Shown here piece after piece: positions 12,351 to 32,161 of a stretch of 64,000 nt of DNA; position 1 is the stretch's first letter, and the number at the start of each line of letters is the position of its first letter. The notes beneath the pieces were generated by a model. The model did no database searches and had not been told where the DNA came from. It was given only the letters and a program-made list of their open reading frames with translations. The position numbers were made by a program, and so were the translations under genes. This DNA comes from Ensifer adhaerens (GTDB lineage: Bacteria; Pseudomonadota; Alphaproteobacteria; Rhizobiales; Rhizobiaceae), in the NCBI RefSeq assembly GCF_020035535.1, contig NZ_CP083351.1, positions 372,001 through 436,000 of the forward strand, written 5' to 3'.

Positions 12351-13883
12351 CTACCCCGCAAGTGCTGGTTGCTCTTTGTTGCCGGCCATCAGCAGGCCGA
12401 GTTCGTCGAGGCGGCTGCGGTCCGGCGGCAATTCGCCAAGGATTTCGCCGTGAAACATCACGAGGATGCGATCGCAAATCGCAAAGAGCTCCTCAAGTTC
12501 GGTGGAAATCAAGAGGATGGCCCGGCCGTTGTCGCGTTGCTTCAACATCTCCTCCATCACGAACTCCATCGCGCCGATGTCAATACCGCGGGCAAGCTGG
12601 TTGACGAGGATGAAATCCGGATTGCGCGCCAGTTCCCGCGCGACCACCAGCTTTTGCTGGTTGCCGCCCGACAGGGCACCGATCGGCTGGTCTTCGTCTC
12701 GACATTTCACGCGGAAACGCTTGATGAGATCGCGGGTCTGTTCGCCGATTGCCCGTCGGTTCAGCATGCCGCGGGTCGCGAAGGGTTTCTGGTCATAGCG
12801 CTGGAGAATGGTGTTCTCGCTGAGCGATAGCGGCATCACGATGCCATGCTTGTGCCGGTCTTCGGGAATGTGGGAGAAGCGCCTGGCATTAATGCGGGCG
12901 GGGTCGAGGCCTGTGATGTCTTCGCCATTGAGCATCACGCGGCCGGAACTGATCGGCAAAAGACCGGAAAGCCCGAGCGAAAGCTCCGTCTGGCCATTGC
13001 CGGACACACCTGCGATCCCGACGATTTCGCCAGCGCGCACATTGAGACTGACGCCGCGCACGGCGGGCAGGCCAGCCTCGCCGCGGCAGACGAGATTTTC
13101 AACCGAAAACACGATGCGACCGGGAGACGAGGGGCTTCGCGGCAGTTCCATGCGGACGTCGCGGCCGACCATCATGCGGGCAAGGTCACGCGCATTGGTC
13201 TCGCGCGCATCGATCGTGTGCACGACGCGGCCGTCGCGCATGACGCTGATGCGATTGCTGACGCGCATCACCTCGTCGAGCTTGTGCGAGATAAAGACGA
13301 CGGTCTTGCCGTCCTTCACGAGGTCACCCATGAGGCACAGCAGTCGGTCGGTCTCCTGCGGCGTAAGAACGGCGGTCGGTTCATCGAGAATCAGCAGATC
13401 GACACCGTGGAACAGGGCCTTGAGGATTTCGACACGCTGTTGTTCGCCGACCGAAAGATCCTCAATGCGCGCCTCGGGGCGCACGTCGAGCGCATAGCGG
13501 TCGGAAAGGGCGCGGATTGTCTCGTGCACCTTGTTCATGTCATTGATGACGCCAAGCGCCGAGCCCTGGCCGAGGATGTAGTTTTCCGCCACCGTCAGGT
13601 TGGGCACCAGCATGAAGTGCTGATGCACCATGCCGATGCGCTGGCGGATCGCTTCCCGAGGGCTGTTGAAGCGCACGGATTGACCCTTGTAGACGATCTC
13701 GCCCTCATCGGGGCGCACCATGCCGCAGATCATGCTCATCAGCACGCTCTTGCCCGCGCCGTTTTCGCCGAGCAGCGAATGGATCTCGCCCTCTGTAATT
13801 TCCAGTGACACGCCGTCGCTCGCCACAATGGAACCGAAGCGCTTGCGGATATTATCGATGCGCAGGAAAGGAAGCTTGGACAT
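12351..13883 (-). CDS. BMP-type ABC importer ATPase (double ATP-binding cassette)
   Basis: A 510-residue peripheral membrane ATPase with two fused cassettes, as in nucleoside importers (YufO/NupA) and sugar importers of the RbsA type. The first half has Walker A GENGAGKS at about residue 38, the signature LSVGEQQR and Walker B LLILDEPTA. The second half has the degenerate GVSGNGQTEL P-loop, LSGGNQQK and an ILVNQLARG Walker B in which the usual Asp-Glu is replaced. That degeneration is typical of site 2. The ATG at 13883 is chosen because GAGG lies 8 nt before it and it follows the permease stop by 5 nt. The open frame runs further upstream over that permease, but that part is not coding. Confidence 0.93.
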   Translation of the reverse strand: MSKLPFLRIDNIRKRFGSIVASDGVSLEITEGEIHSLLGENGAGKSVLMSMICGMVRPDEGEIVYKGQSVRFNSPREAIRQRIGMVHQHFMLVPNLTVAENYILGQGSALGVINDMNKVHETIRALSDRYALDVRPEARIEDLSVGEQQRVEILKALFHGVDLLILDEPTAVLTPQETDRLLCLMGDLVKDGKTVVFISHKLDEVMRVSNRISVMRDGRVVHTIDARETNARDLARMMVGRDVRMELPRSPSSPGRIVFSVENLVCRGEAGLPAVRGVSLNVRAGEIVGIAGVSGNGQTELSLGLSGLLPISSGRVMLNGEDITGLDPARINARRFSHIPEDRHKHGIVMPLSLSENTILQRYDQKPFATRGMLNRRAIGEQTRDLIKRFRVKCRDEDQPIGALSGGNQQKLVVARELARNPDFILVNQLARGIDIGAMEFVMEEMLKQRDNGRAILLISTELEELFAICDRILVMFHGEILGELPPDRSRLDELGLLMAGNKEQPALAG

Positions 13884-13888
13884 ATCCG

Positions 13889-14821
13889 TTACCTCATCTC
13901 GTAGGGCTGGCCGAGTTTGCTCGGTGCGGAGCCCCTGCCGCGGACGACGACGAGCGTGATGATCGTCATGACGTATGGAAGTGCCTGCAGCACCTGGTAC
14001 GGCACGACGATCGATGCCTGCGCCTGAAGCATGAGCTGCAGCGCATAAAAGAGGCCGAAGAGCAGGGAGACGAAGAAGGCCCCGGTCGGCGACCAGCGCG
14101 CGAAAACGACCACTGCAAGCGCGATGAAGCCGCGGCCGGAGGTTATGCCTTCGACAAATTGATTGGAGTGGCCAAGCGTCAGGAACGCGCCTCCAAGCCC
14201 GGCAAGGCCGGTGCCGACCAACACCGCCGCGTAGCGGTAGCCAGTCACACTTCTGCCGGCGACGTCCACGGCCTTGGGATGTTCGCCGACCGCTCGAAGG
14301 GTAAGGCCGAAGGAGGTGCGGTAAAGCACCAGCGCGGCAAGGACTGTGACGAGGATCGTCGAATAGACGATGAGGTTTTGCCGAAAGAACGCTTCCCCGA
14401 GGAAAGGCAGATCGCTGAGGAAGGGGATGCGGACGGGTTGTGCGATTTCGATGCCTTTGCCAGTCGAGACGTAGTAGGTGCGAAAGAGGAAGCCGGTAAG
14501 GCCCATGCCAAGCAGGTTCAAAGCCGCACCCACGACGATCTGATCCGCCTTGATGGTGATCGTCAGGAAGGCGAAGATCAGCCCGAACAGCATGCCGCCG
14601 GCGATACCTGCTGAGAGCCCGAGGGGAATGTTGCCGGTCGCGGACGCAGCGGCGAAGCCGCAAAACGCACCCATCAGCATCGTACCCTCGAGGCCGATAT
14701 TGAGCACGCCTGCCCGTTCGGAAAAGACCTCTCCGATCGAGGCGAATATGAGCGGTGTCGCAAGCCTCCAGGCGGCGCCGACAAGCGTCGCGAGAAATGT
14801 GCCAAACATCATGTCGTCCAT
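13889..14821 (-). CDS. BMP-type ABC importer permease (second)
   Basis: A 310-residue inner-membrane permease with about eight to ten hydrophobic segments, of the BPD_transp_2 family. The motif GEVFSERAGVLNIGLEGTMLMGAF near residues 30-50 is characteristic of the YufQ/NupQ permease. RAVGEHPKAVDVAGRSV at about residue 190 is the coupling-loop region. It follows the other permease gene by 75 nt and precedes the ATPase by 5 nt. With those and the BMP binding protein it forms a complete nucleoside-type importer. Confidence 0.92.
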   Translation of the reverse strand: MDDMMFGTFLATLVGAAWRLATPLIFASIGEVFSERAGVLNIGLEGTMLMGAFCGFAAASATGNIPLGLSAGIAGGMLFGLIFAFLTITIKADQIVVGAALNLLGMGLTGFLFRTYYVSTGKGIEIAQPVRIPFLSDLPFLGEAFFRQNLIVYSTILVTVLAALVLYRTSFGLTLRAVGEHPKAVDVAGRSVTGYRYAAVLVGTGLAGLGGAFLTLGHSNQFVEGITSGRGFIALAVVVFARWSPTGAFFVSLLFGLFYALQLMLQAQASIVVPYQVLQALPYVMTIITLVVVRGRGSAPSKLGQPYEMR

Positions 14822-14896: not shown

Positions 14897-15991
14897 TCAA
14901 GCCACTATCCTGAAGAAGTCGCGCAACTTGGCGAAAGCGACGACCGATAGAATGACGATGCCCTGAATGATCAAGACGAGGATCTGCGGGACCTGAGAGT
15001 TGATCTGGAGGATTTCCGAGCCCGAGCGAAGCGTCGCGAAGAGACCCCCCGACAGGATCGCCGCCAGTGGATTGTTATTGGCCAGCAGCGCCACCGCGAT
15101 GCCTTCGAAACCATAGCCGGGGGAGATATTCTGATAGAGCCGACGCGTGACGCCCGCCACCTCGAAGGCCCCGGCAAGGCCGGCGAGCGCACCGCTGATG
15201 CAAATCGCGATCATGACGTTTCGCGCGACATTCATGCCGGCATAGCGGGCAGCATGCGGATTGACGCCGACGACGCGCAACGCAAATCCCACGCTGCTCC
15301 TTTTGAGGAAGATGGATAGTGCGATCGCCAGGGCCACGGCAACGAGGATGCCGATGTGAAGCCGCATGTCCGTGACGATGCGGGGCGTCCAGGCCTCACG
15401 AACGAGCTTTGCGGATTGGGGGTAGGCGGCACTTGCATCGCGCATCGGACCGGTGACGAGGTAGCTCGTCATGATGAGGGCAATGTAGTTGAGCATGATC
15501 GTGGTAACGATCTCGCTCGCCTGAAAGCGCACCTTGAGATAGCCCGCGATGCCGGCCCAGGCGGCGCCTGCAAGGGCGCCCGCCAGCATCACGAGCGGCG
15601 CGTGCACCCAGACAGACAGACCGTCGATGCTGGTGCCGACGAAGGTGGCGGCGATCGCTCCGACATAGAGTTGACCTTCGGCGCCGATATTCCAGATCGA
15701 ACAGCGGAAGGCGACACAAAGACCTGCGCCGATCAGGATCAGCGGCGTCGCCTTCAGAAGAATCTCTCCGACCGATCGCATGTCCTGGAAGGAGCCGAAG
15801 ATCATCACGGTGACGACATCGCTGCCGTTGAAGCCGTTCAGCCAGAGCAGGGCAGCGCCGCAGGCAAGCGCGACGAGGACCGCTGCCAGAGGTGTCACGG
15901 TGCTGATCGCAGCCTGAAAGAGCGAGCGGTAGAATGCTTGGGTTGCTTGAGAATTCACGGTCTCGCGCACTCCCTGGTTTACCTGTGCCAT
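14897..15991 (-). CDS. BMP-type ABC importer permease (first)
   Basis: A 364-residue inner-membrane permease, YufP-like member of BPD_transp_2. Motifs are LCVAFRCSIWNIGAEGQLYVG at about residues 115-135 and VGVNPHAARYAGM at about 240. Several hydrophobic segments lie between. The start at 15991 is preferred because it fits the family N-terminus, but its Shine-Dalgarno is weak. An in-frame ATG at 16060 would add 23 residues that include the hairpin region after the binding-protein gene, which argues against it. Confidence 0.88.
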   Translation of the reverse strand: MAQVNQGVRETVNSQATQAFYRSLFQAAISTVTPLAAVLVALACGAALLWLNGFNGSDVVTVMIFGSFQDMRSVGEILLKATPLILIGAGLCVAFRCSIWNIGAEGQLYVGAIAATFVGTSIDGLSVWVHAPLVMLAGALAGAAWAGIAGYLKVRFQASEIVTTIMLNYIALIMTSYLVTGPMRDASAAYPQSAKLVREAWTPRIVTDMRLHIGILVAVALAIALSIFLKRSSVGFALRVVGVNPHAARYAGMNVARNVMIAICISGALAGLAGAFEVAGVTRRLYQNISPGYGFEGIAVALLANNNPLAAILSGGLFATLRSGSEILQINSQVPQILVLIIQGIVILSVVAFAKLRDFFRIVA

Positions 15992-16064: not shown

Positions 16065-17054
16065 CTATTGCTCGCCGGTCTTGATTTGCCCGGCGGCGAT
16101 CTTGGCGCTGATTGCCGTCACCTCGGCTTGGATATCTGCCGGTACCGAGACCGGACCATCGTCTCGGAAGGTGAAAGAGATGACCTTGGGGTCCTTCAGG
16201 CCGAAGACCACGTTTTCCTTCGGCGGATTGCCGTCCTTGATCGAGCGCACCACCTCGACCACGCCTTGCGCATAGTCGGCGACGTAGAGGCCGAGGATGT
16301 TGTTGGGCGCAACCTCGGTGAAGTCGCTGAAGATCGAGAAGGAGCGCACGTTGGGACCCGATTCTGCGATCGCCTGATAGCCGCCGACCGTCGCACCCGA
16401 GGCGTTCGGCACCACGAAGTCAGCGCCTTGGGCGATCATGCTCAGGGCCGCTTCCTTGGCAGCGGTCGTGTCGGTGAAGTTGCCGATATAGGCTTCGCTG
16501 ATCGGGAAATCCGGGTTGATGCTTCTTGCACCATTCTTGAAGCCTGCGAACGCCTGCTGGATTGGAGGGATTTCCATGCCGCCGACAAGACCGGCCTTGC
16601 CGCCCATTTTGGCGGCAATGACGCCCATCAGGTAGAAGGGCTGGCTGGTATCGGTGTTGAGGCCGATGACGTTGCCCTCGTGGATGGCGCTGGAAGAGAT
16701 CAGGAAGTAGGTGTCCGGATAGTCCTCGGCCACGTCGAGTGCTGCATCCTGGAATTCGAAGCCATGTCCGAGGATGACCTTGTATCCCTGGCTCGCATAG
16801 TCGCGAAACGCCTTCTCAAACGATGCCGGGTTCTGCTGCAACTCGACATAGCTGACCTTGGCGCCGAGCTGTTTCTCGACGCCTTTCAGCGCATTGTAGC
16901 CGATCCGGTTCCATCCCTCTTCCGAAACGCTGCCGGGGACCAGAAGACCCATCTTGAAATCTTCAGCGCGTGCAAAGTCCTGGCAGAGCGATCCGGCAAG
17001 AGCCAGCCCGAGAGTTGATGCAAGCAGCGAACGACGTGAAATTGCGGTGTTCAT
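16065..17054 (-). CDS. BMP-family ABC importer substrate-binding protein
   Basis: A 329-residue periplasmic protein of the BMP/PnrA-like family, which typically binds nucleosides or purines. The N-terminus SRRSLLASTLGLALAG with a twin arginine and a cleavage site near residue 30 (FARAE) is a signal peptide, possibly Tat. Family motifs are GWNRIGYNALKGVEKQLG, KVILGHGFEFQDAALDVAEDYPDTYF and the C-terminal LGLYVADYAQGVVEVVRSI. The ATG at 17054 has GGGAGG 7 nt before it. It heads the transporter genes and follows the amidohydrolase gene by 54 nt. The ligand is not evident; the associated purine permease and deaminase-like enzyme suggest a nucleobase-like compound. Confidence 0.92.
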   Translation of the reverse strand: MNTAISRRSLLASTLGLALAGSLCQDFARAEDFKMGLLVPGSVSEEGWNRIGYNALKGVEKQLGAKVSYVELQQNPASFEKAFRDYASQGYKVILGHGFEFQDAALDVAEDYPDTYFLISSSAIHEGNVIGLNTDTSQPFYLMGVIAAKMGGKAGLVGGMEIPPIQQAFAGFKNGARSINPDFPISEAYIGNFTDTTAAKEAALSMIAQGADFVVPNASGATVGGYQAIAESGPNVRSFSIFSDFTEVAPNNILGLYVADYAQGVVEVVRSIKDGNPPKENVVFGLKDPKVISFTFRDDGPVSVPADIQAEVTAISAKIAAGQIKTGEQ

Positions 17055-17108: not shown

Positions 17109-18404
17109 TTATGCGTTCTCCTTCAGGCGGATGTTTTCTGTGATGCTCTGCGAAACCAGCCGCCCGTTCGAAAAGACGAAGGCACGGTCGGGTCCGCCGG
17201 CAACCAGCGTGTCGGTATCGACGCAGTCGCTGATGACGAAATCGGCGCGGGCGCCGGCCTTGAGACCGTAATTGCGGCCAAGGCCCATCAGGCGGGCTGG
17301 CGCGGTTGTGATCATCTTGTGCGCGGCGGCGAGTTCGTCGCCACGCAGATGTCCGGCAAGCAGCGTCCAACGCGCGATTTCCAGCATGTCCCCCGAACCG
17401 GTCGGAACGAACGGGTCCTGGATGTTGTCCGAGGCGGTGGCGATGGTGACGCCGGCGCGATGCAATTCGGCCACGCGCGTCAGTCCGCGCGGGGGCAGCA
17501 TTTCGTAGTCCCGACCCTGCAGGTAGAGATTTGCCGCCGGCAGCGTCACGACGCCCACATCAAGGGCAAGCAGCCGTTCGGCGATGCGCTGGAATTCACG
17601 ACGGGGCAGGGCGCTCAGCACCGAAACATGGCTAAAGACCGTGCGGCCCTGCATGCCGAAGCGCTCGACCCGTTCAAGGGCGGCGTCCAGAAGCTGGACA
17701 CCGGCATTGAGGTGTTCGTCAAGGTGCAGGTCGACCGGCTTTCCGGCCTCCACTGCGGCCGAAAACAAGATGTCGAGATAACGCGGCGGGTCCTGCGAGA
17801 CGGCGGGTGTTCCACCGACCGCGTCGGCGAGCGCCACCGCGCCGCCTATATTCTTCTCAAGCCAATCGAAATCCTGGCCGGGATGCGGCGTCATGAACGC
17901 GACAAGCTGCAAGGTGATGCGGTCTCTATTTGCGTTCCGGATGCCCGCCAGGGTCTCGATACCGTGGAAGCCTGCATCCTTATCGACGTTGATATGGCTG
18001 CGGATCGCGGTCGTGCCGCGTGAAAGACAGCGCTCGATCGTGCGGGTCGCGCGCCTGTGAATGTCGTCAGGGCCCGCGGTGCGAGCATATTTCGCGAATG
18101 CTTCGCGGGCGCCCTGGAGCGTGCCCGACGGATTGGGCGTGAAGCGAAGCACGCCTGTCTTGTCGAGATGCTGATGCGCATCGACGAAACCCGGTGAAAC
18201 GAGCGTGCCCGTGATGTCCACGCGGACGCTTGAGGAACTGGTGTCGAGAAAGGGCTCGGCGATGGTGATGCGCCCATCGGCGCCAACGATAATGTCGCTT
18301 GGCGACTGCGAACCGTCGTCATGAACGACGGTTCCGCCGGTAAGAGCAAAGGGCTTGCCGGCCGTCAGGCTTTTGAGCGCCGCCGCTGGATTGTCACGTA
18401 CCAT
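17109..18404 (-). CDS. Cytosine-deaminase-like amidohydrolase
   Basis: A 431-residue cytoplasmic metal-dependent hydrolase. The motifs follow the CodA branch in order: PGFVDAHQHLDKTG (metal HxH, about residues 72-85), VDLHLDEHLNAG (metal His and catalytic Glu), VFSHVSVL (His) and TIATASDNIQDPF, where CodA has the catalytic Asp. CodA-type enzymes deaminate cytosine or related ring compounds, or hydrolyse cyclic amides. The first residues are the usual Urease-like small beta domain. It lies just upstream of the BMP binding protein and likely acts on the imported compound. The promoter region 18405-18546 holds several palindromes. Substrate is unknown. Confidence 0.88.
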   Translation of the reverse strand: MVRDNPAAALKSLTAGKPFALTGGTVVHDDGSQSPSDIIVGADGRITIAEPFLDTSSSSVRVDITGTLVSPGFVDAHQHLDKTGVLRFTPNPSGTLQGAREAFAKYARTAGPDDIHRRATRTIERCLSRGTTAIRSHINVDKDAGFHGIETLAGIRNANRDRITLQLVAFMTPHPGQDFDWLEKNIGGAVALADAVGGTPAVSQDPPRYLDILFSAAVEAGKPVDLHLDEHLNAGVQLLDAALERVERFGMQGRTVFSHVSVLSALPRREFQRIAERLLALDVGVVTLPAANLYLQGRDYEMLPPRGLTRVAELHRAGVTIATASDNIQDPFVPTGSGDMLEIARWTLLAGHLRGDELAAAHKMITTAPARLMGLGRNYGLKAGARADFVISDCVDTDTLVAGGPDRAFVFSNGRLVSQSITENIRLKENA

Positions 18405-18622: not shown

Positions 18623-19411
18623 TCAGTGCCTGTATTGCGGCTCTTCGGCATCCAGTTGCCGGCGGATGGCGGCAAGATGGGCCTTGGCAGACTGGGGATC
18701 GCCTTCGCGCATCTGCCGGTACGCGGCCTCGGCAATTGCCTGGTCGACCGGCGAAACTTTCCTGCCCGTCGACATGGCGAGAACCTGCACCTCGGCTGCT
18801 CTTTCGAGGTAGTAGAGATCGTCCCACGCCTCGGCGATCGTGGGCGCCAGCACCAAGACGCCATGGTGCTTCAAGAAAACGATGTCCGCATCGCCTGCCG
18901 CCTCGGCAATGCGTGCACCCTCGCGGTGATCAAGTGCCAGCCCGTTGTAATGTTCGTCGACGGCCGTGCGGCCGTAGAATTTGAGTGCTGTCTGGCCTGC
19001 CCAGATCAGCGGCGGGCCGTCCGTCATCGAAAGCGCCGTTGCATAGGGCATGTGCGTGTGGAAGGCGACCTTCGCGCGCGGCAGCAGCCGGTGGATCTCG
19101 GCGTGGATATAGAAGGCCGTTGCCTCCGGTTCGCCCTCGCCATCGACAACGGTGCCGTTCAAATCGCACACGAGCAACTTTGAAGCCGTTAGTTCGCGAA
19201 AGGCATAGCCATAGGGATTGACGATGAAGAGCGTGTCATGGCCGGGGACGACCGCGGAGAAGTGATTGCAGATCCCTTCCTCGAACCCGTTGCGTGCCGC
19301 CATGCGGAAACAGGCGGCGAGGTCTTCCTTCGCGGTGCGGATGGCATCGCTGGAAAGGTCGGGATAGTTCGTCCGCGCGGCGTTGGCACGGCCTTTCAGG
19401 GAGTGCGCCAT
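18623..19411 (-). CDS. Class II aldolase/adducin-family protein
   Basis: A 262-residue cytoplasmic protein of the class II aldolase family (AraD/FucA fold). Members are zinc-dependent aldolases, epimerases or decarboxylases. NPYGYAFRELTASKLLVCDLNG covers the substrate phosphate-like loop region. FHTHMPYATALS holds the metal His pair, and FLKHHGVLVLAP the third metal His. The ATG at 19411 has GGAG 9 nt before it. Sequence style (RxAARNGFEEGICNHFS) is close to the adducin-like hydrolase/decarboxylase branch rather than sugar-phosphate aldolases. It is probably controlled by the LysR 218 nt upstream. The reaction is not predictable from sequence. Confidence 0.88.
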   Translation of the reverse strand: MAHSLKGRANAARTNYPDLSSDAIRTAKEDLAACFRMAARNGFEEGICNHFSAVVPGHDTLFIVNPYGYAFRELTASKLLVCDLNGTVVDGEGEPEATAFYIHAEIHRLLPRAKVAFHTHMPYATALSMTDGPPLIWAGQTALKFYGRTAVDEHYNGLALDHREGARIAEAAGDADIVFLKHHGVLVLAPTIAEAWDDLYYLERAAEVQVLAMSTGRKVSPVDQAIAEAAYRQMREGDPQSAKAHLAAIRRQLDAEEPQYRH

Positions 19412-23006: not shown

Positions 23007-23485
23007 AACGGATAGTCGAGTTCACCGTCAACGGCGAGGAACGGGAGATGGCGGTCGAGACCTGCCGCTCGCTGCTCGATGCGCTGCGCGACGACGTCGG
23101 CCTCACCGGCACGAAGAAGGGTTGCGATGTCGGCGATTGCGGGGCGTGCACGGTGCTGGTCGATGGCGAGCCCGTCAACGCCTGTCTGATACTCGCGGTC
23201 GAAGTGGAGGGCCGTTCGGTTGAGACCGTCGAAGCGCTCCAGCCAGGCGTCGATACGCTGCACCCGCTGCAGGATGCCTTCATGCGTCATGGCGCCTCGC
23301 AATGCGGCTTCTGCACACCGGGCATCTTGATGATGGCCAAGAAGCTGATCGACGACAATCCGCGCCCGACCGATGACGACATCCGCTTCGGTCTTTCCGG
23401 CAATATCTGCCGCTGCACCGGCTACACCAAGATTTTCGACGCGATCAAATCCGCCGCGCGCGAGATGGAGGCTGCAAGATCATGA
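23003..23485 (+). CDS. Molybdenum hydroxylase [2Fe-2S] subunit
   Basis: A 160-residue cytoplasmic subunit with two [2Fe-2S] clusters. The plant-type cluster is bound by Cys41, Cys46, Cys49 and Cys61 ([14 protein letters not shown]). The second, in a helical domain, uses Cys101, Cys104, Cys136 and Cys138 (QCGFCTPG and NICRCTGY). All eight ligands are present. It links the molybdopterin site to FAD. The start at 23003 overlaps the preceding stop, and its own stop overlaps the next ATG. A longer in-frame extension over the FAD gene is not used. Confidence 0.94.
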
Positions 23486-25788
23486 ACATGACGACCCCTA
23501 TCGAACAACGCGATTTCAAGATCGTCGGCAAGAGCGTCAAGCGCGACGACGTGCTCGAAAAGGTGACGGGCGAGGCGCAATATACCGGTGATATCAAGCG
23601 GCCCGGCATGCTTCACGGCAAGATCAAGCGTGCGCCCCTGGCCCATGCCCGCATCAAGAGCATCGACGTCAGCAAGGCGCTCGCCTATCCCGGTGTGAAA
23701 GCGGTGCTGACGCACGAAAACGTGCCGCGCGTCTTGCATTACGGCTCGCCGCATCCGCGTTCGGCTTCCTGCACCAAGGACCAGTACATCCTCGATGATC
23801 ACGTGCGTTTCTGGGGTGAGGGCGTCGCCGCAGTCGCGGCGGTCAGCGAGGAGATCGCCGACGAGGCACTCGATCTGATCGAGGTCGAATACGAGCCGCT
23901 GCCGGCCGTCTTCGAGCCTGAGGATGCCACCCGGCCAGATGCACCCCTGATCCATGAAGTCGGCCCCGGCGGTAACCTGGTTCTCGATCCGGTACGCGTC
24001 AACCGTGGCGATGTCGATGCTGGCTTTGCCGCGGCGGATTTCGTGCTCGAGGGCACCTTTGCCGGTGGACGTCCGCACCCGGCCTATATGGAGCCGAATG
24101 TCTGCATTGCCGACTGGGACGGCTCGAACAAGCTCACCTTCTGGACGTCAACGCAGACCTCCTTCATGGTGCGCGGCATCCTTGCCGAAGTGCTCGGACT
24201 GCCGCTCACGAAGGTCCGCGTGCTCGTCGACCACATGGGCGGCGGTTTCGGCGCCAAGCAGGATCTCTTCCAGCACGAGTTCCTTTGCGCCTTGCTTGCC
24301 AAGGAGACGCGCCGGCCGGTCAAGATGGAATTCACCCGTCGCGAGACCTTCGTCGCCGGGCGCTCGCGCCATCCCTGCAAGATCTGGCTGAAGCAGGGTT
24401 TCAAGAACGACGGCACGCTCGTGGCCCGCGACATGAAGCTCGTCTACGATTCCGGCGCCTACGGCTCGCATGGTCCAGGCGTCACAATCGTCGGCACGAC
24501 GGCGGCGACCTCGCTCTATCGCTGCGACAACGTGCGGCTGGAGGGGCGCTGTGTCTACACCAACACGCCGATCAACGGCGCTTTCCGCGGCTATGGCGTG
24601 GTGCAAAGCTACTATGCCCTCGACATCCAGATGGACGAGGCGGCCGAACGGCTCGGCATGGACCCCGCCGAGCTCAAGCTGAAGAACGTGGTGCGCGAGG
24701 GCGACATCGCGCCCTCCGGCCACCCCATCATCGGCCACGGGCTCGCGATCTGCTTGAAGCACGGCATTGACGTGCTCGACTGGAAGGCGTTGCGCAACCG
24801 CGATCGCACGCCGGATGCCAAGCGTCCGCATATCCGAACGGGATGGGGGGTTGGTTGCGAAATGCATGGGTCGTCGGCCTATCCGGGCATCAAGGAGCAA
24901 GGAAACGCCACGGTTAAGATTAACGAGGATGGCACGGTGACATTGCTCACCGGCGCGGCGGGTCTCGGCACGGGCGCCCATACGGCGCTCGCACAGATCG
25001 TCGCTGAAGAACTCGGCGTGCGGTTCGAAGACGTCGGCGTCATTCATGGCGATACCGATGTCGTTCCGTGGGATATCGGAGCCTTCGCAAGCCACACCAC
25101 TTACCTGGTCGGCACCGCCGCGAAGATGGCTGCCGGCAAGGTCCGCGCCGCCGTGCTCGAGCGCGCTGCGATGAAGCTGCAGCTTGCACCCTCTGACCTT
25201 GATCTCTCGGAAGGTCGGGTTTTCGTCCTCACCGAGCCCGATCGCGTCATGACGGTTGCCGAGGCAATGGGGCCTTCTCGAGGAATTCCCGCCGCCAACA
25301 TCGTTGCCAACGGCACCTATGAGCCGACGAAATCCTACTCCTTCGCCGCACATTTCACCGAGGTGGACGTCGACATCGAAACCGGGATCGTCGAGGTCAA
25401 GCGTGTCGTGCCGGTGCACGATGTCGGTCGGGTCATCCACCCGATCGCTGCGCAAGGCCAGATTGAGGGTGGTATCCAGCAGGGCATCGGCCACACGCTT
25501 ACCGAAGACTACGTCATCTGCAAGAAGACCGGCCGGTCGCTGAATGCCGGCCTGGTCGACTACAAGATGCCGCTCTCGATGGACATGCCGGATATCGAAA
25601 CGATCATTCTGGAAGCCGCGCCCGATCCAGGTGGTCCCTGGGGCGCCAAGGGCGTCGGTGAGGATCCGATCATCGCCATCGGCCCCTCGATCGCCAACGC
25701 GATCCATGACGCCGTCGGCGTGCGCTTCCACCACTATCCGATTACTCCGGAAGATATTCTGAAAGCCTTGAGGGAGAAGGGCGAATGA
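23482..25788 (+). CDS. Molybdenum hydroxylase catalytic (molybdopterin) subunit
   Basis: A 768-residue catalytic subunit of the xanthine oxidase family. Domains are the a/b hammerhead (about residues 20-130, [19 protein letters not shown]) and the Mo-binding domains. The latter include [34 protein letters not shown] and [16 protein letters not shown]. The catalytic Glu is Glu727 in [12 protein letters not shown]. Such enzymes hydroxylate an electron-poor ring carbon using water. The [10 protein letters not shown] loop differs from the AFRG(F/Y)G-x-PQ of true xanthine dehydrogenases, so another N-heteroaromatic substrate is likely. Length is typical. It overlaps the FeS gene and the COG0523 gene by 4 nt each. 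Confidence 0.92.
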
Positions 25789-26918
25789 ACATCCATATCG
25801 AACCTGCGAGCCGGCAGAAGCTCCCGATCACGATCCTCACCGGGTTCCTTGGGTCGGGAAAGACGACGCTGCTCAATTACATTCTCACCGAACGCCACGG
25901 TCATCGCATCGCCGTGATTGAAAACGAGTACGGCGAGGTCGACGTCGACAGCGATCTGGTGCTCGCCTCCGACGAGGAAATCTTCCAGATGCAGAACGGC
26001 TGCATCTGCTGTTTCGTCGACGTGCGCAATGATCTGATCGACGTGATGAAGAAGCTCTTGAGCCACAAGGACAAGTTCGATCACATCATCGTCGAGACGT
26101 CCGGTCTCGCCGATCCGACGCCCGTGGCCACAGCCTTCTTCGTCGACCGCAACGTGGCGGAAGAAGTAGAACTCGATGCGGTGGTCACGCTGGTCGATGC
26201 CAAGCATATCGACCAGCATCTTTACGATCCCGTCCTCGATGGCAGCGACAACCAGGCGGTCAACCAGATCGTCGCGGCTGACCGTATCATCGTCAACAAG
26301 ATCGACCTGGCAGAAGACGAGGCGCTCGGGTCGCTGGAGGGTTCGTTGCGCAAGCTCAACCAGACAGCGCCGATCCTCAGATCCAGCTATGGCAAGGTCG
26401 ACCTTTCCGACATTCTTGGCGTGAACGGCTTCCGGCCGTCCTATGTGCGCGAGCGGGCAGAAATCCTCGATATCGATCTGGATGACAATCGCGATGCGCA
26501 TGGTCATCACCATCACGAATGCCATGATGCGGCGTGCGACCATCCGGATCACGATCACGCCCGTCATGGCCACGATCATGACCATCGCCACGCGTCAGCT
26601 CTCAAACCGCACCGGCATGACGCGACCGTAACGTCGCATTCCTTCGTCTACCCGGAGGCTTTCGACGCTGAGAAACTCGCCGCCTTCCTTGAAGGTTACC
26701 TGGACAAACACGGCAACGACATTTTCCGCACCAAGGGCATCGTTTCGGTCGCCAATGACGATCGCTTCTTCGTGCTTCAGGCGGTGCACAAGCTCGTAGA
26801 TTTCCGCCCTGACCACGCATGGGGCGAAGACAGGCGGAAATCGAAATTCGTTTTCATTGGTCGCAATCTCGACCGTGTCGGTATCGACAGAAACTTGCGT
26901 GCATGCCTGGTGCCATAG
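25785..26918 (+). CDS. COG0523 (CobW-family) GTP-dependent metallochaperone
   Basis: A 377-residue cytoplasmic G3E GTPase. The Walker A is GFLGSGKTT at 20-28, and ENEYGEVDVD follows. The CxCC zinc-binding motif is Cys73/75/76 in NGCICCF, with ETSGLADPTP near 104 and NKID at 171-174. A long His-rich tract spans about residues 239-279, with HxH repeats and two Cys. The C-terminal CobW domain ends in FIGRNLDR. These proteins deliver zinc or another metal to client enzymes. It is translationally coupled to a Mo hydroxylase that has no zinc site, and the next operon encodes metal-dependent amidohydrolases. They are the likelier clients; this is inference. Confidence 0.9.
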   Translation: MNIHIEPASRQKLPITILTGFLGSGKTTLLNYILTERHGHRIAVIENEYGEVDVDSDLVLASDEEIFQMQNGCICCFVDVRNDLIDVMKKLLSHKDKFDHIIVETSGLADPTPVATAFFVDRNVAEEVELDAVVTLVDAKHIDQHLYDPVLDGSDNQAVNQIVAADRIIVNKIDLAEDEALGSLEGSLRKLNQTAPILRSSYGKVDLSDILGVNGFRPSYVRERAEILDIDLDDNRDAHGHHHHECHDAACDHPDHDHARHGHDHDHRHASALKPHRHDATVTSHSFVYPEAFDAEKLAAFLEGYLDKHGNDIFRTKGIVSVANDDRFFVLQAVHKLVDFRPDHAWGEDRRKSKFVFIGRNLDRVGIDRNLRACLVP

Positions 26919-26967
26919 CAGCGCTTCTCCACGCCGGACGGTGCCTTCGTAAGTCTTTCTGTCTGAG

Positions 26968-26994
26968 CCGCCCGCGCACCTCCAGCGCGGGCGG
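26968..26994 (+). terminator. Terminator of the Mo-hydroxylase operon
   Basis: CCGCCCGCGC at 26968-26977 pairs perfectly with GCGCGGGCGG at 26985-26994 around a 7-base loop, followed by a T-containing stretch (TTGCTGCTTC). It starts 50 nt after the COG0523 stop, so it probably ends that operon. Confidence 0.6.
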
Positions 26995-27053
26995 TTGCTG
27001 CTTCGTCAGCGTAAAATAGGAAATAAAAACAATATCTTAGCAAAAATAATCTG

Positions 27054-27082
27054 TTGACACGACGCTTCCGTCGAGGTTAGCT
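27054..27082 (+). promoter_or_regulatory. Candidate sigma-70 promoter
   Basis: TTGACA at 27054-27059 is a perfect -35 hexamer. With a 17-base spacer the -10 would be TTAGCT at 27077-27082, a weak match. It lies about 235 nt upstream of the first amidohydrolase and downstream of a terminator, so it could drive the amidohydrolase-UbiD operon. Confidence 0.4.
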
Positions 27083-27318
27083 TGAAGCCGAGTAGAAGCA
27101 CCGACAATTGCTCACCGTCTGTTGGAAGATGAGGCCGCGATGTCGATGCTGACTACGAAAGGAATGCCCGGTTGCGCCCGCCTTGGGGATTTGAGCGCCG
27201 GCCTTTCTTTTCCGTCATCGGCATTTCCTGAGATCGCGGATCCACGCCTGGCTTCGGCCGGCATGGCGTTCACCGCGCGGCCCCGCATCGACCGGACCCT
27301 CTACGACAGGAGAACCCC

Positions 27319-28242
27319 ATGATAATTGACCTGAGCTGCTACCCCACCGACCTGGTGGATCTGGCTTGGCGCCACGACGGGCCGCCGTTCACCGGCGACA
27401 AACTGCTGAAAATGATGGACGGCCCGTACTATGTGAACGGCAAGCCGCGCCGCATTGACAAGGCTTTCATCCAGCCGCCGCAGGGCAACACGATCTATAC
27501 CCACGAAGTCATGGACCTGGAGGGCAAGGCCGCCATCCGCCAGTACATGGCCTATACCGAAAAAATGGTGACTGAGCATCCGGACCGCTTCCTTGGCTGC
27601 TTCGTCTACAATCCGCGCTACGGCACGCAGAACGGTGCAGACGAGATCGAACGCTATGCCAAGGAGTTCGATTTCAAGATGGTGCAGCTGCAGGCAAACA
27701 TGCACGCCTATCGTCCCGACCGCGCGCTCGACTGGCTGCGTCCGGCTCTAAAGAAATGCGCCGATCTCGGCCTGATGGTGAAAGTACACACCGGCGACGG
27801 GCCGTACTCGATCCCGACGGAGTTCTACCCGATCATCCGCGAGTTCCCCGAAGTAAACTTCATCCTGGCGCATTTCGGCGTGCAGACCGGCGGCGTCTAC
27901 GTGTTCGAACCGATGCAGATGGCGCTCGATACGCCGAGCGTCTACGTGGAATCCGGCTGGTGCCTGCAGTCGCGCATCGTCGAATTCGCAAAGGTCCTGC
28001 CCAAGCACAAGATCCTCTTTGGCTCCGATACCCCGCCGAACGAGCCGGGCATGTGGATCAACCTTCTGGAAGTCCTCTGCCATGAGCCGCCCCAGGGCCT
28101 GAACCTCGATGAAGATACGCTGGAGGATTACCTCGGCAACAACGTCGCCCGCATGATCGGCCTTGAGGCAACCAAGCCCCCGGCCACGGTCGAGGAAGCC
28201 GAGGCGTATCTGCGCCAGCACGGCGTAGCGCTCGCCGCGTAA
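27319..28242 (+). CDS. Amidohydrolase-2 (ACMSD-like) protein lacking the HxH motif
   Basis: A 307-residue TIM-barrel protein of the amidohydrolase-2 family, whose members are zinc- or manganese-dependent decarboxylases and hydrolases. The barrel is well conserved: VKVHTGDGP (His157), ILAHFGVQTGG (His185) and FGSDTPPNEPGM (Asp237). However the N-terminal metal motif reads DLSCYP at residues 4-9, where its neighbour has DTHLHP, so both HxH histidines are replaced. It is otherwise closely related to the protein encoded 18 nt downstream. It may be a non-catalytic partner of a heteromer or bind a metal differently. The ATG at 27319 follows an AGGAG site. Confidence 0.88.
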   Translation: MIIDLSCYPTDLVDLAWRHDGPPFTGDKLLKMMDGPYYVNGKPRRIDKAFIQPPQGNTIYTHEVMDLEGKAAIRQYMAYTEKMVTEHPDRFLGCFVYNPRYGTQNGADEIERYAKEFDFKMVQLQANMHAYRPDRALDWLRPALKKCADLGLMVKVHTGDGPYSIPTEFYPIIREFPEVNFILAHFGVQTGGVYVFEPMQMALDTPSVYVESGWCLQSRIVEFAKVLPKHKILFGSDTPPNEPGMWINLLEVLCHEPPQGLNLDEDTLEDYLGNNVARMIGLEATKPPATVEEAEAYLRQHGVALAA

Positions 28243-28260: not shown

Positions 28261-29205
28261 ATGATCATCGATACCCATCTTCACCCGACCAATCTCGTCG
28301 ACGAGGCGTGGCGCCACACCGGCGAGCCCTTCACCGGCGAGCGCATGCTCAAACTGATGGACGGCCCCTACATGATCAACGGCAAGCCGCGCCGGATCGA
28401 CATGGGCTTCATTCAGCCGCCGCCGGGCAACACCGGCTACCGCGACGGTAACCGCAAGGGCCGCGAGGGCATTCGCGACTACATGGCCTATTGCGCCGAG
28501 CTTTGCCAGAAGTACCCGGACCGCTTTATTGGCAACTTCAACTACAATCCGCGCTGGGGACCTGAAAACGGCGCGGCGGAGCTGGAATTCCACGTCAAGG
28601 AATACGGCTTCAAAATGCTGAAGCTGCACGCCAACATGCACGGCTATCGCCCCGACCGCGCGCTCGACTGGCTGCGTCCTGCGATGAAGAAATGCGCAGA
28701 ACTCGGCGTTGTGGTTCTCATCCACACAGGCGACGGCCCTTACACCATCCCGACGATGTTCTACCCGATCATTCGTGAATTCCCGATGGTCAACTTCATC
28801 ATCGGCCATTTCGGCATTCAGACGGGTGGCAACTACTCGTTCGAATCTTTCTGGATGGCGATGGATACGCCGAACGTCTACTGCGAGTCCGGCTGGTGCT
28901 TCCAGTCGCGCATTGTCGAGTTCGCCCAGCAACTGCCGAAGAACAAGATCGTGTTCGGTACGGACAGCCCGCCGAACGATCCTGGCATGTGGCTGCGCGA
29001 ACTGGAAGTGCTGTGCAAGGATCCGCCGCAGGGCATCAACCTCTCCGAGGATGATCTGGAGGGCTATCTCGGCAACAACATCGCCAAGCTCGTCGGCATC
29101 GACCCGTCGCCGCCGCCGCGCGACCTCAGGGACGCACAAGCACGCCTTAAGGACTCCTACGCCGGCGTCGACCGCGCGACGGGCCGTCACCTGGAATTTG
29201 CTTGA
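28261..29205 (+). CDS. Amidohydrolase-2 (ACMSD-like) metal-dependent hydrolase or decarboxylase
   Basis: A 314-residue TIM-barrel enzyme with the full metal set: His6 and His8 (DTHLHP), His155 (LIHTGDGP), His183 (IGHFGIQTGG) and Asp235 (FGTDSPPNDPGM). The family includes ACMSD, gamma-resorcylate decarboxylase, isoorotate decarboxylase and some hydrolases. It is a tandem paralogue of the upstream protein, sharing long runs such as HAYRPDRALDWLRP/HGYRPDRALDWLRP. It is separated by 18 nt with a GGAG-like site. The context (UbiD next, Mo hydroxylase upstream) suggests it acts on a hydroxylated heteroaromatic acid or an opened ring. Exact reaction unknown. Confidence 0.9.
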   Translation: MIIDTHLHPTNLVDEAWRHTGEPFTGERMLKLMDGPYMINGKPRRIDMGFIQPPPGNTGYRDGNRKGREGIRDYMAYCAELCQKYPDRFIGNFNYNPRWGPENGAAELEFHVKEYGFKMLKLHANMHGYRPDRALDWLRPAMKKCAELGVVVLIHTGDGPYTIPTMFYPIIREFPMVNFIIGHFGIQTGGNYSFESFWMAMDTPNVYCESGWCFQSRIVEFAQQLPKNKIVFGTDSPPNDPGMWLRELEVLCKDPPQGINLSEDDLEGYLGNNIAKLVGIDPSPPPRDLRDAQARLKDSYAGVDRATGRHLEFA

Positions 29206-29213
29206 TTGAAGAC

Positions 29214-29265: not shown

Positions 29266-30639
29266 ATGACCCAATACCACAAGCAAGACGTCCGACGCTT
29301 CCTGACGGACTACAGGCAGGAGCACCCCGAAGACGTGATCACCATCGACCGTGCGGTGTCGGATGATCAGGACGCGACGGCGTTGATCTGGAACCTGGCC
29401 GACAAGGGACAGCATCCGATGCTGCATCTTAAGAGTGTTAGCGGCATCGGTTCTGAAGTTCTTTGCAACATCTTCGCCTCGCGCGAGCGGATCGCCCGCC
29501 TTCTCGGCTCGACGGCCGAAAATCTGCACGAGGTCTACCAGGCGCGCTCCAATCGGCCGTTCACGCCGAAACTTCTGGAATCGGGCCCGATAAGCGAGGA
29601 GATCATCTCCGGCGATGCCGTCGACCTGCACGATCTGCCGATGCTCAAGCATTTCGACACGGATCGTGCGAAATACATCACCAGCGGCATCATCATCGGC
29701 GAGCATCCGCAAACCGGTGCCGGCAATCTCAGCTATCACCGCGCGATGATCCATTCGAAAAACTCGCTCGCAACCTCGCTTCACTCGCGCGGCCATCTCT
29801 GGCGGTTGATGAACATGGCCAAGGAGAAGGGAAAACCGATGCCCGTCGCCATGGTCATCGGTGGCCATCCGCTCTTCATGATCGCGGCCTCCGCCCGTCT
29901 TGCCTTCGGTGAAGACGAGCGTGATGTCGCCGGTGGCTTGATGGGAGAACCGCTTGAGGTCGTGCGCACGCCAAAATTTGGCATCCGCGTCCCCGCTCAT
30001 GCCGAAATCGTGCTGGAAGGCGTGCTGGATCCCGAGGCGCATGTGGAGGAGGGGCCTTTCGGCGAGTTCACCGGTTATTCCTCCGATCGTTCGACCAACA
30101 ATCTCTTCACCGTCGAAACCGTAATGCGCCGGCGCGATGCCATCCTCGTTAGCGTGGCTGGCGGTAACTCGGCGGAACACCTCAATCTCGGTCGCGTGCC
30201 GCGCGAGGCGGAGGTGGTGGAAAAACTGAAGGCGCGTTTTCCCTCGATCACCGCCGTGCACTACCCCTCGTCGGGCACGCATTTCCACGCCTATATCGCC
30301 ATGAACCAGACCCGCGAGGGAGAAGCGCGGCAGGTGATGCTCGGCCTTCTTGGCTGGGACCAGTATCTGAAAACCGTCGTCGTGTTGGACGCGGATGTCG
30401 ACATCACCCGTGACAGTGAAGTGCTCTGGGCGCTCGCAACCCATTTCCAGCCGCACAAGGACGTCGTCATCATCGAGGGCCTTCCGGGCAATGCGCTCGA
30501 TCCCTCCGCCAGCGGCATTGGCACGACGTCGCGCATGGGTCTCGATGCGACCCGCGGGCCGAATTTTCACGGCGTGCGCGCCCGCATCAGCGACGAGGCT
30601 TCTGCTCGTGCCGCATCTCTGCTGAAAAGCGTGGGATAG
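29266..30639 (+). CDS. UbiD-family prenylated-FMN decarboxylase
   Basis: A 457-residue cytoplasmic decarboxylase of the UbiD family, which needs prenylated FMN made by UbiX. The cofactor-binding Arg sits in NLSYHRAMIHSKN (Arg159). The catalytic acidic motif is EEGPFGEFTGY around residues 261-271. AMVIGGHPLFMIAAS and GVRARISDEA complete the pattern. Members decarboxylate aromatic, heteroaromatic or unsaturated acids. This sequence looks like a catabolic branch and not ubiquinone-pathway UbiD, which is about 490 residues. It is followed at 3 nt by its own ubiX. The substrate is unknown; a heteroaromatic carboxylate fits the neighbours. Confidence 0.92.
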   Translation: MTQYHKQDVRRFLTDYRQEHPEDVITIDRAVSDDQDATALIWNLADKGQHPMLHLKSVSGIGSEVLCNIFASRERIARLLGSTAENLHEVYQARSNRPFTPKLLESGPISEEIISGDAVDLHDLPMLKHFDTDRAKYITSGIIIGEHPQTGAGNLSYHRAMIHSKNSLATSLHSRGHLWRLMNMAKEKGKPMPVAMVIGGHPLFMIAASARLAFGEDERDVAGGLMGEPLEVVRTPKFGIRVPAHAEIVLEGVLDPEAHVEEGPFGEFTGYSSDRSTNNLFTVETVMRRRDAILVSVAGGNSAEHLNLGRVPREAEVVEKLKARFPSITAVHYPSSGTHFHAYIAMNQTREGEARQVMLGLLGWDQYLKTVVVLDADVDITRDSEVLWALATHFQPHKDVVIIEGLPGNALDPSASGIGTTSRMGLDATRGPNFHGVRARISDEASARAASLLKSVG

Positions 30640-30642
30640 GCC

Positions 30643-31224
30643 ATGGCGCATCCAAGACGCATGATCGTCGGCATTTCGGGGGCATCCGGCGTTGTCTACG
30701 GAAAGCGCCTCCTCGAAGTGCTGCGCGACCTCGACATCGAGACACACCTGATCATGTCACGCGCTGCCTGCATAACGCTTGCGGCCGAGGCGGAGTTCTC
30801 GAAACAGGATCTCGAAGCTCTGGCGACAACCACACATTCCAACAAGGACATCGGCGCGGCCTGCTCGTCCGGCTCCTACAAGACGCTTGGCATGATCGTC
30901 GCTCCCTGTTCGGTAAAGACGCTTGCCGAGATTGCAACGGGCACAACGGACAATCTGCTATCGCGTGCCGCCGACGTCGTGCTCAAGGAGCGTCGCCGCC
31001 TCGTCCTCATGCTGCGCGAGACACCGCTCCATCTCGGCCACATTCGCAATATGGCGCAAGTGACCGAGATGGGCGGCATCATCTATCCGCCCGTGCCGGC
31101 TTTTTATGCAAAGCCACGAAGCATCGAGGACATGGTCGACCACACCGTCGGCCGCGTGCTCGATCTCTTCGAACTTGATGCGGGCGTCGTGCGACGGTGG
31201 CAGGGAACGAGAGGAGAGGAATGA
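30643..31224 (+). CDS. ubiX: UbiX-family flavin prenyltransferase
   Basis: A 193-residue flavin prenyltransferase that attaches dimethylallyl phosphate to FMN, giving the UbiD cofactor. The FMN phosphate loop is VGISGASGVVYGKRLLE at about 8-24. CSSGSYKTLGMIVAPCSVKTLAEIA and LVLMLRETPLHLGHIRNM are diagnostic, and YPPVPAFYAKPRSIEDMVDHTVGR closes the family pattern. It sits 3 nt after the UbiD gene and 1 nt before the XdhC-type gene. The organism probably has another ubiX; this one is dedicated to the operon. Confidence 0.94.
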   Translation: MAHPRRMIVGISGASGVVYGKRLLEVLRDLDIETHLIMSRAACITLAAEAEFSKQDLEALATTTHSNKDIGAACSSGSYKTLGMIVAPCSVKTLAEIATGTTDNLLSRAADVVLKERRRLVLMLRETPLHLGHIRNMAQVTEMGGIIYPPVPAFYAKPRSIEDMVDHTVGRVLDLFELDAGVVRRWQGTRGEE

Positions 31225-31225
31225 C

Positions 31226-32161
31226 ATGGCAGGGAGCATCGCCACATATCCGGATAGTTTTGCGCCCGAACCCCGTGCCGCATTCTTGTCGGACGATGCC
31301 GCCGACATTCTCGCTTTCGCGGCCGAGTGTCTGGAAGGCGGCCACAAGGCTGCCCTTGTCACCCTTGTCGAAATCCGGGGTGGCGCAGCGCGGGCTCTTG
31401 GTGCGCAAATGGTCGTGCGCGAGGATGGTTTTTATTGCGGCTTCGTGTCTGGCGGCTGCACGGAAGCGGCCGTTGCGGCTGAGGCCATGACGGCAATCGG
31501 GAAGGACATGGATCGCAACCTTCGTCTCGGTGAAGGCTCTCCCTTCTTCGACATCGTTCTTCCGTGCGGCGGCGGGATTACGCTCACCATCCATGTCCTG
31601 CGCGATGCAACCGTCTTGCACCTCGCCTTGACGGCCCTTGATCGCCGCACGCCGATGCGCCTGCGCTATCATCCCGGCAAACGAACCCTTTCCGTCGCGC
31701 CTGGCGAGGGACCAAGCGGATGGGATGGCCCGTACTTTTTACGGGCGTATCGACCGAAACCGCGGCTGCTGATCGCCGGTACACCGTTGGAGGCCCAGGT
31801 GGTGTCGCGGCTGGCAGTTGCCTGCGGATACGAGGTTGTCGTTCTGGCGCGCAGTGAGCAGCCCTCAGCGGATCAGTTGGACGCCGACACTGCCGTCGCG
31901 CTGCTCTTTCATGATATCGATCGGGAACTGCCGGTGCTGAACGCCGCGCTCGCCTCGAAAGCATTTTACGTCGGCGCCCTCGGCAGCCGCAGGACCCACG
32001 CGAAGCGTTGCGAGGCTCTTCGCCGTTGCGGCTATGGCGACGACGACATTGCGCGCATCAGAGCGCCGATCGGGATCTTCGACAAGGCAAGAGACGCGTC
32101 CTCTCTCGCCGTCTCCGTCGTTGCCGACATTGCGCACGCACGGGTCGGCTACACAGCTTGA
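31226..32161 (+). CDS. XdhC/CoxI-family Mo-cofactor maturation protein
   Basis: A 311-residue cytoplasmic protein. XdhC proteins bind the molybdenum cofactor and help its sulfuration and insertion into xanthine-oxidase-type enzymes. The N-terminal domain has ALGAQMVVREDGFYCGFVSGGCTEAAVA (motif GGCTEA) and FDIVLPCGGGITLTIHVL. The C-terminal Rossmann domain has RLLIAGTPLEAQVVSRLA and FYVGALGSRRTHAKRCEAL. The start at 31226 follows GAGAGGA and the UbiX stop by 1 nt. Its location in the UbiD operon, 5 kb from the Mo hydroxylase, ties the two operons to one pathway. Confidence 0.9.
   Translation: MAGSIATYPDSFAPEPRAAFLSDDAADILAFAAECLEGGHKAALVTLVEIRGGAARALGAQMVVREDGFYCGFVSGGCTEAAVAAEAMTAIGKDMDRNLRLGEGSPFFDIVLPCGGGITLTIHVLRDATVLHLALTALDRRTPMRLRYHPGKRTLSVAPGEGPSGWDGPYFLRAYRPKPRLLIAGTPLEAQVVSRLAVACGYEVVVLARSEQPSADQLDADTAVALLFHDIDRELPVLNAALASKAFYVGALGSRRTHAKRCEALRRCGYGDDDIARIRAPIGIFDKARDASSLAVSVVADIAHARVGYTA

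Follow-up and report, generated by a model that had tools for sequence, protein, structure and literature searches.

The window analysed here is the whole 64,000-nt stretch G000:C3:372001-436000, which lies on a 736-kb plasmid of Ensifer adhaerens within a genome of 8.1 Mb and three contigs. At window positions 12351-32161 it holds an island of genes for which we propose, at a probability of some 0.6 for the exact scheme set out below, a role in converting 2-amino-4-oxopteridines (pterins) to xanthine. A preliminary description of the same DNA had listed the genes; each of them was found at its place, all named families are backed by Pfam or NCBIfam matches, and the RefSeq annotation of a near-identical plasmid (NZ_CP083345.1, p1 of E. 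adhaerens W2-A) agrees with the gene calls.

The right-hand genes lie on the + strand. The first, ncs2 (20688-22079), encodes an NCS2 permease of the xanthine-permease subfamily (TIGR03173, 514.6 bits; cut-off, 414.15). It is followed by the genes for the three subunits of a molybdenum (Mo) hydroxylase, namely the flavin adenine dinucleotide (FAD) subunit (22143-23006; PF00941, PF03450), the 2Fe-2S subunit (23003-23485; PF01799, PF00111; start per RefSeq) and the large subunit (23482-25788; PF02738, PF20256, PF01315), and by cobW (25785-26918; PF02492, PF07683), whose product is a COG0523 GTPase and probably a metal chaperone. A 400-bp leader region (26919-27318), with a conserved leader RNA at 27090-27318 (+), separates cobW from a run of five genes: amh1 (27319-28242) and amh2 (28261-29205), both for Amidohydro_2 proteins (PF04909), ubiD for an HmfF-like UbiD-family decarboxylase (29266-30639; PF01977, PF20696, PF20695), ubiX for a flavin prenyltransferase (30643-31224; NF004685, 273.5 bits; cut-off, 188) and xdhC for an XdhC-family Mo-cofactor maturation protein (31226-32161; PF13478, PF02625; start per RefSeq). 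Directly after cobW, a GC-rich inverted repeat that has no T run (26968-26994) may end the first right-hand operon; a promoter and terminator scan of 26900-27340 found nothing.

The left-hand genes lie on the - strand behind lysR (19629-20525; PF03466, PF00126), the gene for a LysR-type regulator that diverges from ncs2 over 162 bp. They encode a class II aldolase family protein (18623-19411; PF00596; NF005068, 454.7 bits; cut-off, 269), the cytosine-deaminase-like amidohydrolase Cda (cda, 17109-18404; PF07969/PF01979), which is our candidate pterin deaminase, and a BMP-type importer consisting of a substrate-binding protein (16065-17054; PF02608), permease 1 (14897-15991; PF02653; start per RefSeq), permease 2 (13889-14821; PF02653) and an ATP-binding protein (bmpATP, 12351-13883; PF00005; start per RefSeq). 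A gene for a second LysR-type regulator (11373-12293, -; NCBIfam LysR matches) closes the set, and adjoins bmpATP in L006, L008, L010, L025, L028 and L030 (L numbers are loci of the survey below). The two halves had been said to share one divergent LysR promoter; the divergent pair is there, but the left-hand set has a second LysR gene and the amh1-xdhC run has its own leader.

Conservation and linkage of the island genes

A survey of named genomes for amh2 yielded 257 confirmed relatives. Counts over 80 rest on the best 80 of these 257, counts over 81 add the window, and genes counted as within reach are those in the fetched stretches, which have 10-kb flanks, some of them shorter. The best 80 come from Rhizobiales, Rhodobacterales, Acidiphilium, Burkholderiales, Pseudomonas, Crenobacter and Marinobacterium. 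Looked for in these genomes, the same gene set recurs: amh1 lies immediately 5′ of amh2 in 80/80 loci, and UbiD is within reach in 79, the exception being L029, where the stretch ends early, while in L042 and L054 UbiD is only 38% identical and at another place. UbiX is within reach in 76 loci, COG0523 in 75, NCS2 in 66, the Mo large subunit in 65, XdhC in 15 and the aldolase in 13. XdhC is not core.

The amh1 and amh2 proteins, 64% identical to each other, form a fixed pair of unlike members. An HxH metal motif is present in amh2 in 81/81 clusters, placing it among the Amidohydro_2 metal hydrolases, and in amh1 the same place is taken by S-x-Y in 81/81, so that amh1 lacks the metal motif. Despite this, the later His, His and Asp are conserved in the pair; in Amidohydro_2 proteins these residues are metal ligands. 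The pair had been described as two ACMSD-like amidohydrolases, which holds at the level of the family (PF04909) and no further: neither has an NCBIfam match, and a PDB search came closest with 5-carboxyvanillate/LigW2 decarboxylases, which score about 32 bits. Nor are the two equivalent. It is more likely that the pair opens and then re-closes a ring than that it decarboxylates. Selenocysteine in amh1, to which TGA stops flagged inside the gene had pointed, was considered and rejected: the first stop in L021-L024 is the gene end, and in 80/80 loci the conserved Cys is encoded by TGC or TGT.

The island is sparsely distributed, with amh2 in 7/199 genomes of the window's family (five genera) and in 4/398 genomes of the phylum Pseudomonadota. 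The cluster was also seen on pSymB of Sinorhizobium meliloti ABS7. In the family searches, which scored no more than a handful of top candidates from each genome (for cda, at most 8), cda (E up to 1e-100) and the BMP binding protein (E up to 1e-90) were each found in 7/199 genomes, and these are the very genomes that have amh2. As all three genes share the same seven genomes, the halves are parts of a single functional unit. The preliminary description had tied the halves together; the link proves stronger than was claimed, and its view of a single unit that breaks down a purine-like N-heteroaromatic compound, with hydroxylation and decarboxylation among the steps, is supported. The class II aldolase behaves differently, being present in 15/199 family genomes, only four of them with amh2; it is therefore accessory, and was rejected as a core step.

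Every one of the 80 genomes has a deaminase, which is of the Cda type in 38 and of a second type, c7, in 42. The c7 protein is an Amidohydro_1 protein encoded after ncs2 in many beta- and gammaproteobacterial (beta/gamma) clusters. Within the fetched stretches cda occurs at 14 loci, c7 at 37, both at none and neither at 29; whole-genome search of those 29 added 24 genomes with cda and five with c7. No c7 was found in the window's genome, or in five cda genomes searched genome-wide. At L040, L044, L047-L049 and L066 (Paracoccus, Brucella/Ochrobactrum) cda takes the place of c7 after ncs2 in the same gene order, and we therefore regard the two as exchanged at one step. Both belong to the amidohydrolase superfamily, in which they are distantly related and not orthologous. 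Cda falls short of the cytosine deaminase model NF005759 (221 bits; cut-off, 403).

A PDB search with c7 gave 2paj (446 bits) as nearest, then 3hpa (289 bits). In a c7 tree of 34 rows, from which near-identical rows had been dropped, 2paj falls inside the c7 group and 3hpa outside it, with branch support of 100/100, and identity between c7 and 2paj is 47-56% across 24 cluster-bearing rows. We take 2paj to be isoxanthopterin deaminase, reportedly the one described by Hall in 2010, and 3hpa to be 8-oxoguanine-deaminase-like. A literature search linking 2paj to isoxanthopterin found nothing. With 3hpa outside the c7 group, 8-oxoguanine deaminase was rejected as the deaminase of the beta/gamma clusters. 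In the phylum sample, c7 of at least 66% identity is confined to the three genomes other than the window's that have amh2. Relatives of 2paj (62-90% identical) were also seen at L097-L100, in genomes without amh2, those at L098-L100 within a conserved gene set that includes an ABC-type ATPase.

With FAD, 2Fe-2S and molybdenum-cofactor-binding domains spread across three subunits, the Mo hydroxylase is a member of the xanthine-oxidase superfamily. It shares this with the enzymes of xdhABC operons, as the island shares with them an XdhC maturation protein and an NCS2 permease, but its large subunit is far below the cut-off of the xanthine dehydrogenase (XDH) model TIGR02965 (327.6 bits; cut-off, 849.5) and also below that of NF043082 (656.3 bits; cut-off, 780), and an ordinary XDH operon was rejected. 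Genuine XDH genes lie elsewhere: two are on other contigs of the same genome (1379.6 and 1395.1 bits), and a genuine XDH large subunit was found in 26/26 genomes tested, all of them cluster genomes. XdhC has the Pfam XdhC domains and scores below TIGR02964 (57.3 bits versus 161.6) and NF045664 (93.7 versus 350).

Leader RNAs before amh1

The leader of the window type aligns in 18 rows (the window and L001-L017) with a mean column identity of 87%. Its core, RGTAGAAGC with one mismatch allowed plus ATTGCT within 75 nt, is present in the 345 nt before amh1 in 38/81 clusters, the window included (core halves at 27090-27099 and 27106-27113), and these are the halves RGUAGAAGC and AUUGCU of the xanthine riboswitch (NMT1 RNA, RF03054). 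Chance was rejected as an explanation, since the motif has 45 matches in 3.22 Mb (both strands of the 80 loci) and at 36/80 loci lies at most 330 nt before amh1. One pair of the P1 stem is G-C in 28 of the 38 leaders, C-G in 10 and mismatched in none.

A gathering-level Rfam search of seven loci placed RF03054 directly before amh1 in S. medicae (41.5 bits). When 31 selected whole genomes were searched (E up to 0.5; gathering score, 36), matches were found 111-262 nt 5′ of amh1 in 12; three are above 36 bits (G603, 41.4; G604, 43.4; G605, 41.5), making the leader of the orthologous operon a member of the family there, and the others score 19.7-35.6. Further RF03054 matches precede transporter or cobW genes of the clusters at L019, L020, L022, L023, L029 and L077. 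Sub-threshold matches stand before a gene for an NMT1-type ABC transporter in the cluster at L022:5498-5560, L023:5510-5573 and L029:5547-5605, which suggests that this transporter is a further uptake system for the pathway. Two mapped RF03054 places of L072 that have no core were taken as lying on other contigs.

The core halves are just 7 nt apart, and the P2 hairpin between them is gone, in 20 of the 38 leaders, including that of the window. With P2 missing, the window leader fails the Rfam test: no RF03054 match was obtained in window positions 11000-33000 (E up to 5) or in the genome G000 (E up to 0.5). In the crystal structure of the xanthine riboswitch, G10 and U40 clamp the pyrimidinedione edge of xanthine and C11 is base-paired (PMC8266621, in part; papers so marked were available as excerpts). 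Loss of P2 removes the base pairing of C11 and keeps the clamping bases G10 and U40, and on this pattern the window leader may be degenerate, or may have changed to recognise a different ligand. Folded as a single sequence, the leader is no more stable than expected (z, -0.40). In the alignment of the 18 window-type leaders, whose rows are very alike, RNAalifold detected almost no covariation (1/50 pairs). No hit approaching a gathering score came out of Rfam E-value scans of the window and of the leaders of L034 and L044.

Most beta/gamma clusters have a distinct leader. A covariance model built from 17 rows matches 36/50 loci, 19 of them outside the model rows, always 61-189 nt 5′ of amh1 (e.g. 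L070:8866-8956). Its hairpin has two-sided changes in 4/6 pairs and a covariation score of 0.462 versus 0.187 for shuffled sequences. No gathering-level Rfam match was found for it in L034, L055, L056 or L062, and none that convinces in the L034 leader. The model's one match in 150 genomes of G518's order (G639, 25.9 bits) has no island gene adjoining and was set aside as probable chance. Neither leader type was found in L072 and the six Paracoccus/Brucella-type loci. At L040, L044, L047-L049 and L066 yet another leader precedes amh1, with stretches common among these loci; upstream, at roughly L044:8722-8797, there is a GC hairpin that has a T run.

Riboswitches of RF03054 act as OFF switches on genes that would lead to oxidised purines (PMC7373994, in part). 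It follows that an operon with the amidohydrolase pair and UbiD under this control should yield xanthine or urate. The main text of the discovery paper, in the excerpt available, mentions neither UbiD nor pterin nor a decarboxylase (PMC7373994, in part).

Proposed route from pterins to xanthine

From the computed gene content, co-occurrence, deaminase exchange, leader RNAs and separate XDH genes we infer the following substrates, products and step order. A pterin would enter through the BMP importer, the NCS2 permease or both, and Cda would strip its 2-amino group to give a 2,4-dioxopteridine of the lumazine type. The Mo hydroxylase, matured by XdhC, would oxidise C6 and C7 of the pyrazine ring, acting as a pteridine hydroxylase and yielding 2,4,6,7-tetrahydroxypteridine. 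The amh1/amh2 pair, with metal provided by the COG0523 protein, would hydrolyse one amide of the pyrazine ring, whereupon the freed enamine would close an imidazole with loss of water, the net result being isomerisation to xanthine-8-carboxylate (EC 5.5.1.3). UbiD would decarboxylate this product to xanthine by means of prenylated flavin mononucleotide made by UbiX, the xanthine dehydrogenases encoded elsewhere would consume the xanthine, and the xanthine-riboswitch-family leader would shut the amh1 operon upon product build-up. Pterin catabolism in some step order is likelier still than this scheme as written.

The scheme has a chemical precedent. McNutt, in the 1960s, is said to have followed bacterial breakdown of isoxanthopterin via xanthine-8-carboxylate to xanthine. 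That route consists of deamination to violapterin, oxidation to tetrahydroxypteridine, conversion to xanthine-8-carboxylate by tetrahydroxypteridine cycloisomerase (EC 5.5.1.3) and decarboxylation. We know of no genes for the ring contraction or for the decarboxylation of xanthine-8-carboxylate. The island has one gene class for each of the four reactions, although for the last two it provides candidates, not proof: amh2 with amh1 for the cycloisomerase, and UbiD for the decarboxylase. In 2013 Fan reportedly used genomic context to propose a pterin pathway not yet described. EC 5.5.1.3 stands on a published list of orphan activities, where it is rated difficult (PMC1940265, in part), and xanthine oxidase converts lumazine to violapterin (PMC9966888, in part). 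In chemical terms the ring with the 6,7-dioxo groups is a cyclic oxamide. Hydrolysing one amide and closing the free enamine onto the other carbonyl would give the imidazole, and this type of reaction would plausibly fit a metal-dependent amidohydrolase.

The best PDB matches of UbiD, which has the UbiD domains and a UbiX partner gene, are 6h6x (212.2 bits) and 6h6v (209.5 bits), the latter being PtHmfF (PMC8988006). That HmfF, the nearest structure, acts on furandicarboxylate supports the scheme. The hmf clusters also combine UbiD and UbiX with a Mo hydroxylase; the island differs by its deaminase and amidohydrolase pair, and its proteins matched no family of CoA ligases or thioesterases. On the side of the deaminases, c7 of the beta/gamma clusters belongs with 2paj, and Cda falls in the same wide superfamily. 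Pterin deaminase activity is proven for Arad3529 and for the enzyme of Variovorax F1, and for Variovorax F1 a deaminase and a carboxypeptidase, not the cluster of the island, are reported (PMC9513972, in part). The open-licence literature yielded no described gene cluster for pterin-ring breakdown, in keeping with the earlier statement that no described pathway has this combination of genes.

Several observations weigh against the scheme. Cda scores below the cut-off of every NCBIfam family among the matches listed (25 of 40). In four of the 80 genomes the deaminase is on another contig only, as cda (L029), as c7 of 53% and 50% identity (L042 and L054) or as a partial c7 (L059). Weaker relatives of c7 (45-57% identity) occur in 7/398 Pseudomonadota genomes without amh2, and amh2 is likewise missing from the genomes behind the tree rows nearest to 2paj; the deaminase family thus has uses outside the pathway too. 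No Mo large subunit is within reach in 15/80 loci, the Mo hydroxylase of the beta/gamma clusters is of a different family, and the xanthine-permease subfamily of NCS2 is compatible with a purine as well. The core of the leader is absent from 43/81 clusters, and RF03054 was not found before amh1 in 19/31 genomes, the window's among them (E up to 0.5). Although xanthine C8 is more reactive toward electrophiles than imidazole C2, UbiD might act on lumazine-6-carboxylate instead of xanthine-8-carboxylate: the UbiD enzyme HudA, which acts on pyrrole-2-carboxylate, is inactive on imidazole-2-carboxylate, a motif contained in xanthine-8-carboxylate (PMC7976604, in part).

This last point leads to the alternative that survives best, though we consider it unlikely, in which the same classes of step follow another order. 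Pterin-6-carboxylate from folate breakdown would be imported and deaminated, UbiD would decarboxylate lumazine-6-carboxylate, and the Mo hydroxylase and the amidohydrolases would come afterwards. Lumazine-6-carboxylate has been reported from folate-degrading isolates (PMC5919439, in part) and named as a candidate intermediate (PMC9513972, in part), UbiD enzymes act on aromatic acids, and the HudA result disfavours an imidazole-2-carboxylate substrate (PMC7976604, in part). However, ubiD is separated from the Mo hydroxylase genes, being part of the amh1-xdhC run behind a leader of that run, and HmfF, the closest UbiD of known structure, uses a five-membered ring as substrate.

Along the lines of the preliminary description, the substrate might be some other N-heteroaromatic acid, for instance a carboxylate of pyridine, pyrimidine, pyrrole or imidazole, and the deaminase would then act on a ring that bears an amino group; we hold this to be improbable. 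Mo hydroxylases, UbiD and Amidohydro_2 proteins each occur in pathways of this kind, but the strict link to a deaminase and the xanthine-family leader in 38/81 clusters point to a fused pyrimidine ring, and the cluster proteins of the window yielded no domain of a ring-cleaving oxygenase.

Purine-fermenting clostridia break xanthine down hydrolytically. A route of that type, in which the amidohydrolases would open xanthine, UbiD would decarboxylate 4-amino-5-imidazolecarboxylate and the deaminase would act on 4-aminoimidazole, would suit an NCS2 permease of the xanthine subfamily and a xanthine-family riboswitch. We hold it to be quite improbable, as normal XDH is already present in the 26 cluster genomes tested, the exchangeable deaminase belongs to the 2paj family, and the riboswitch class turns off producers of xanthine; in the excerpt available, its discoverers saw it control no genes that degrade oxidised purines (PMC7373994, in part). 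That the importer, deaminase and aldolase are a separate nucleobase salvage set and a mere neighbour, as their own LysR gene and the poor association of the aldolase with amh2 might suggest, is largely refuted, because importer and deaminase occur in exactly the 7/199 genomes with amh2 while gene order varies among relatives.

The earlier interpretation is partly supported. Its ring acid, which was to be imported and then hydroxylated, decarboxylated and opened, more likely arises within the pathway as an intermediate than enters from outside; the deaminase probably acts first, and the product is probably xanthine. Pterins come from folates, biopterin and insect pigments. If the scheme is true, there are now gene candidates for the ring contraction of EC 5.5.1.3 and for the decarboxylation of xanthine-8-carboxylate, pterin and purine breakdown meet at xanthine, and annotations such as 'xanthine dehydrogenase family', 'UbiD' and 'amidohydrolase' on rhizobial megaplasmids are accounted for. 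The pathway would also join the xanthine-riboswitch regulon, and the leader variants may sense a new ligand.

A more specific joint claim, which we regard as doubtful, would make amh1 and amh2, one subunit without the metal motif, an obligate heteromer and the missing tetrahydroxypteridine cycloisomerase, in a pathway controlled by leader RNAs. Some alphaproteobacterial relatives of the xanthine riboswitch would have been rearranged, with P2 lost and the pocket bases kept, to sense a dioxopteridine, and the leader of most beta/gamma clusters would be a new riboswitch class.

Further relatives and a neighbouring gene

Relatives of amh2 with 69-74% identity bear the names Nocardia, Streptomyces and Humibacter (P0138, P0142, P0152), and the enzyme may therefore extend beyond Proteobacteria. 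The contig of L020 is filed as Enemella evansiae, an actinobacterium, and carries a cluster of alphaproteobacterial type whose amh2 is 90% identical to the query; it is possibly mislabelled or contaminated. A gene resembling those for arylmalonate decarboxylase and Asp/Glu/hydantoin racemase (cluster c13) lies near the island in L028, L034 and 16 further loci, and perhaps serves downstream products.

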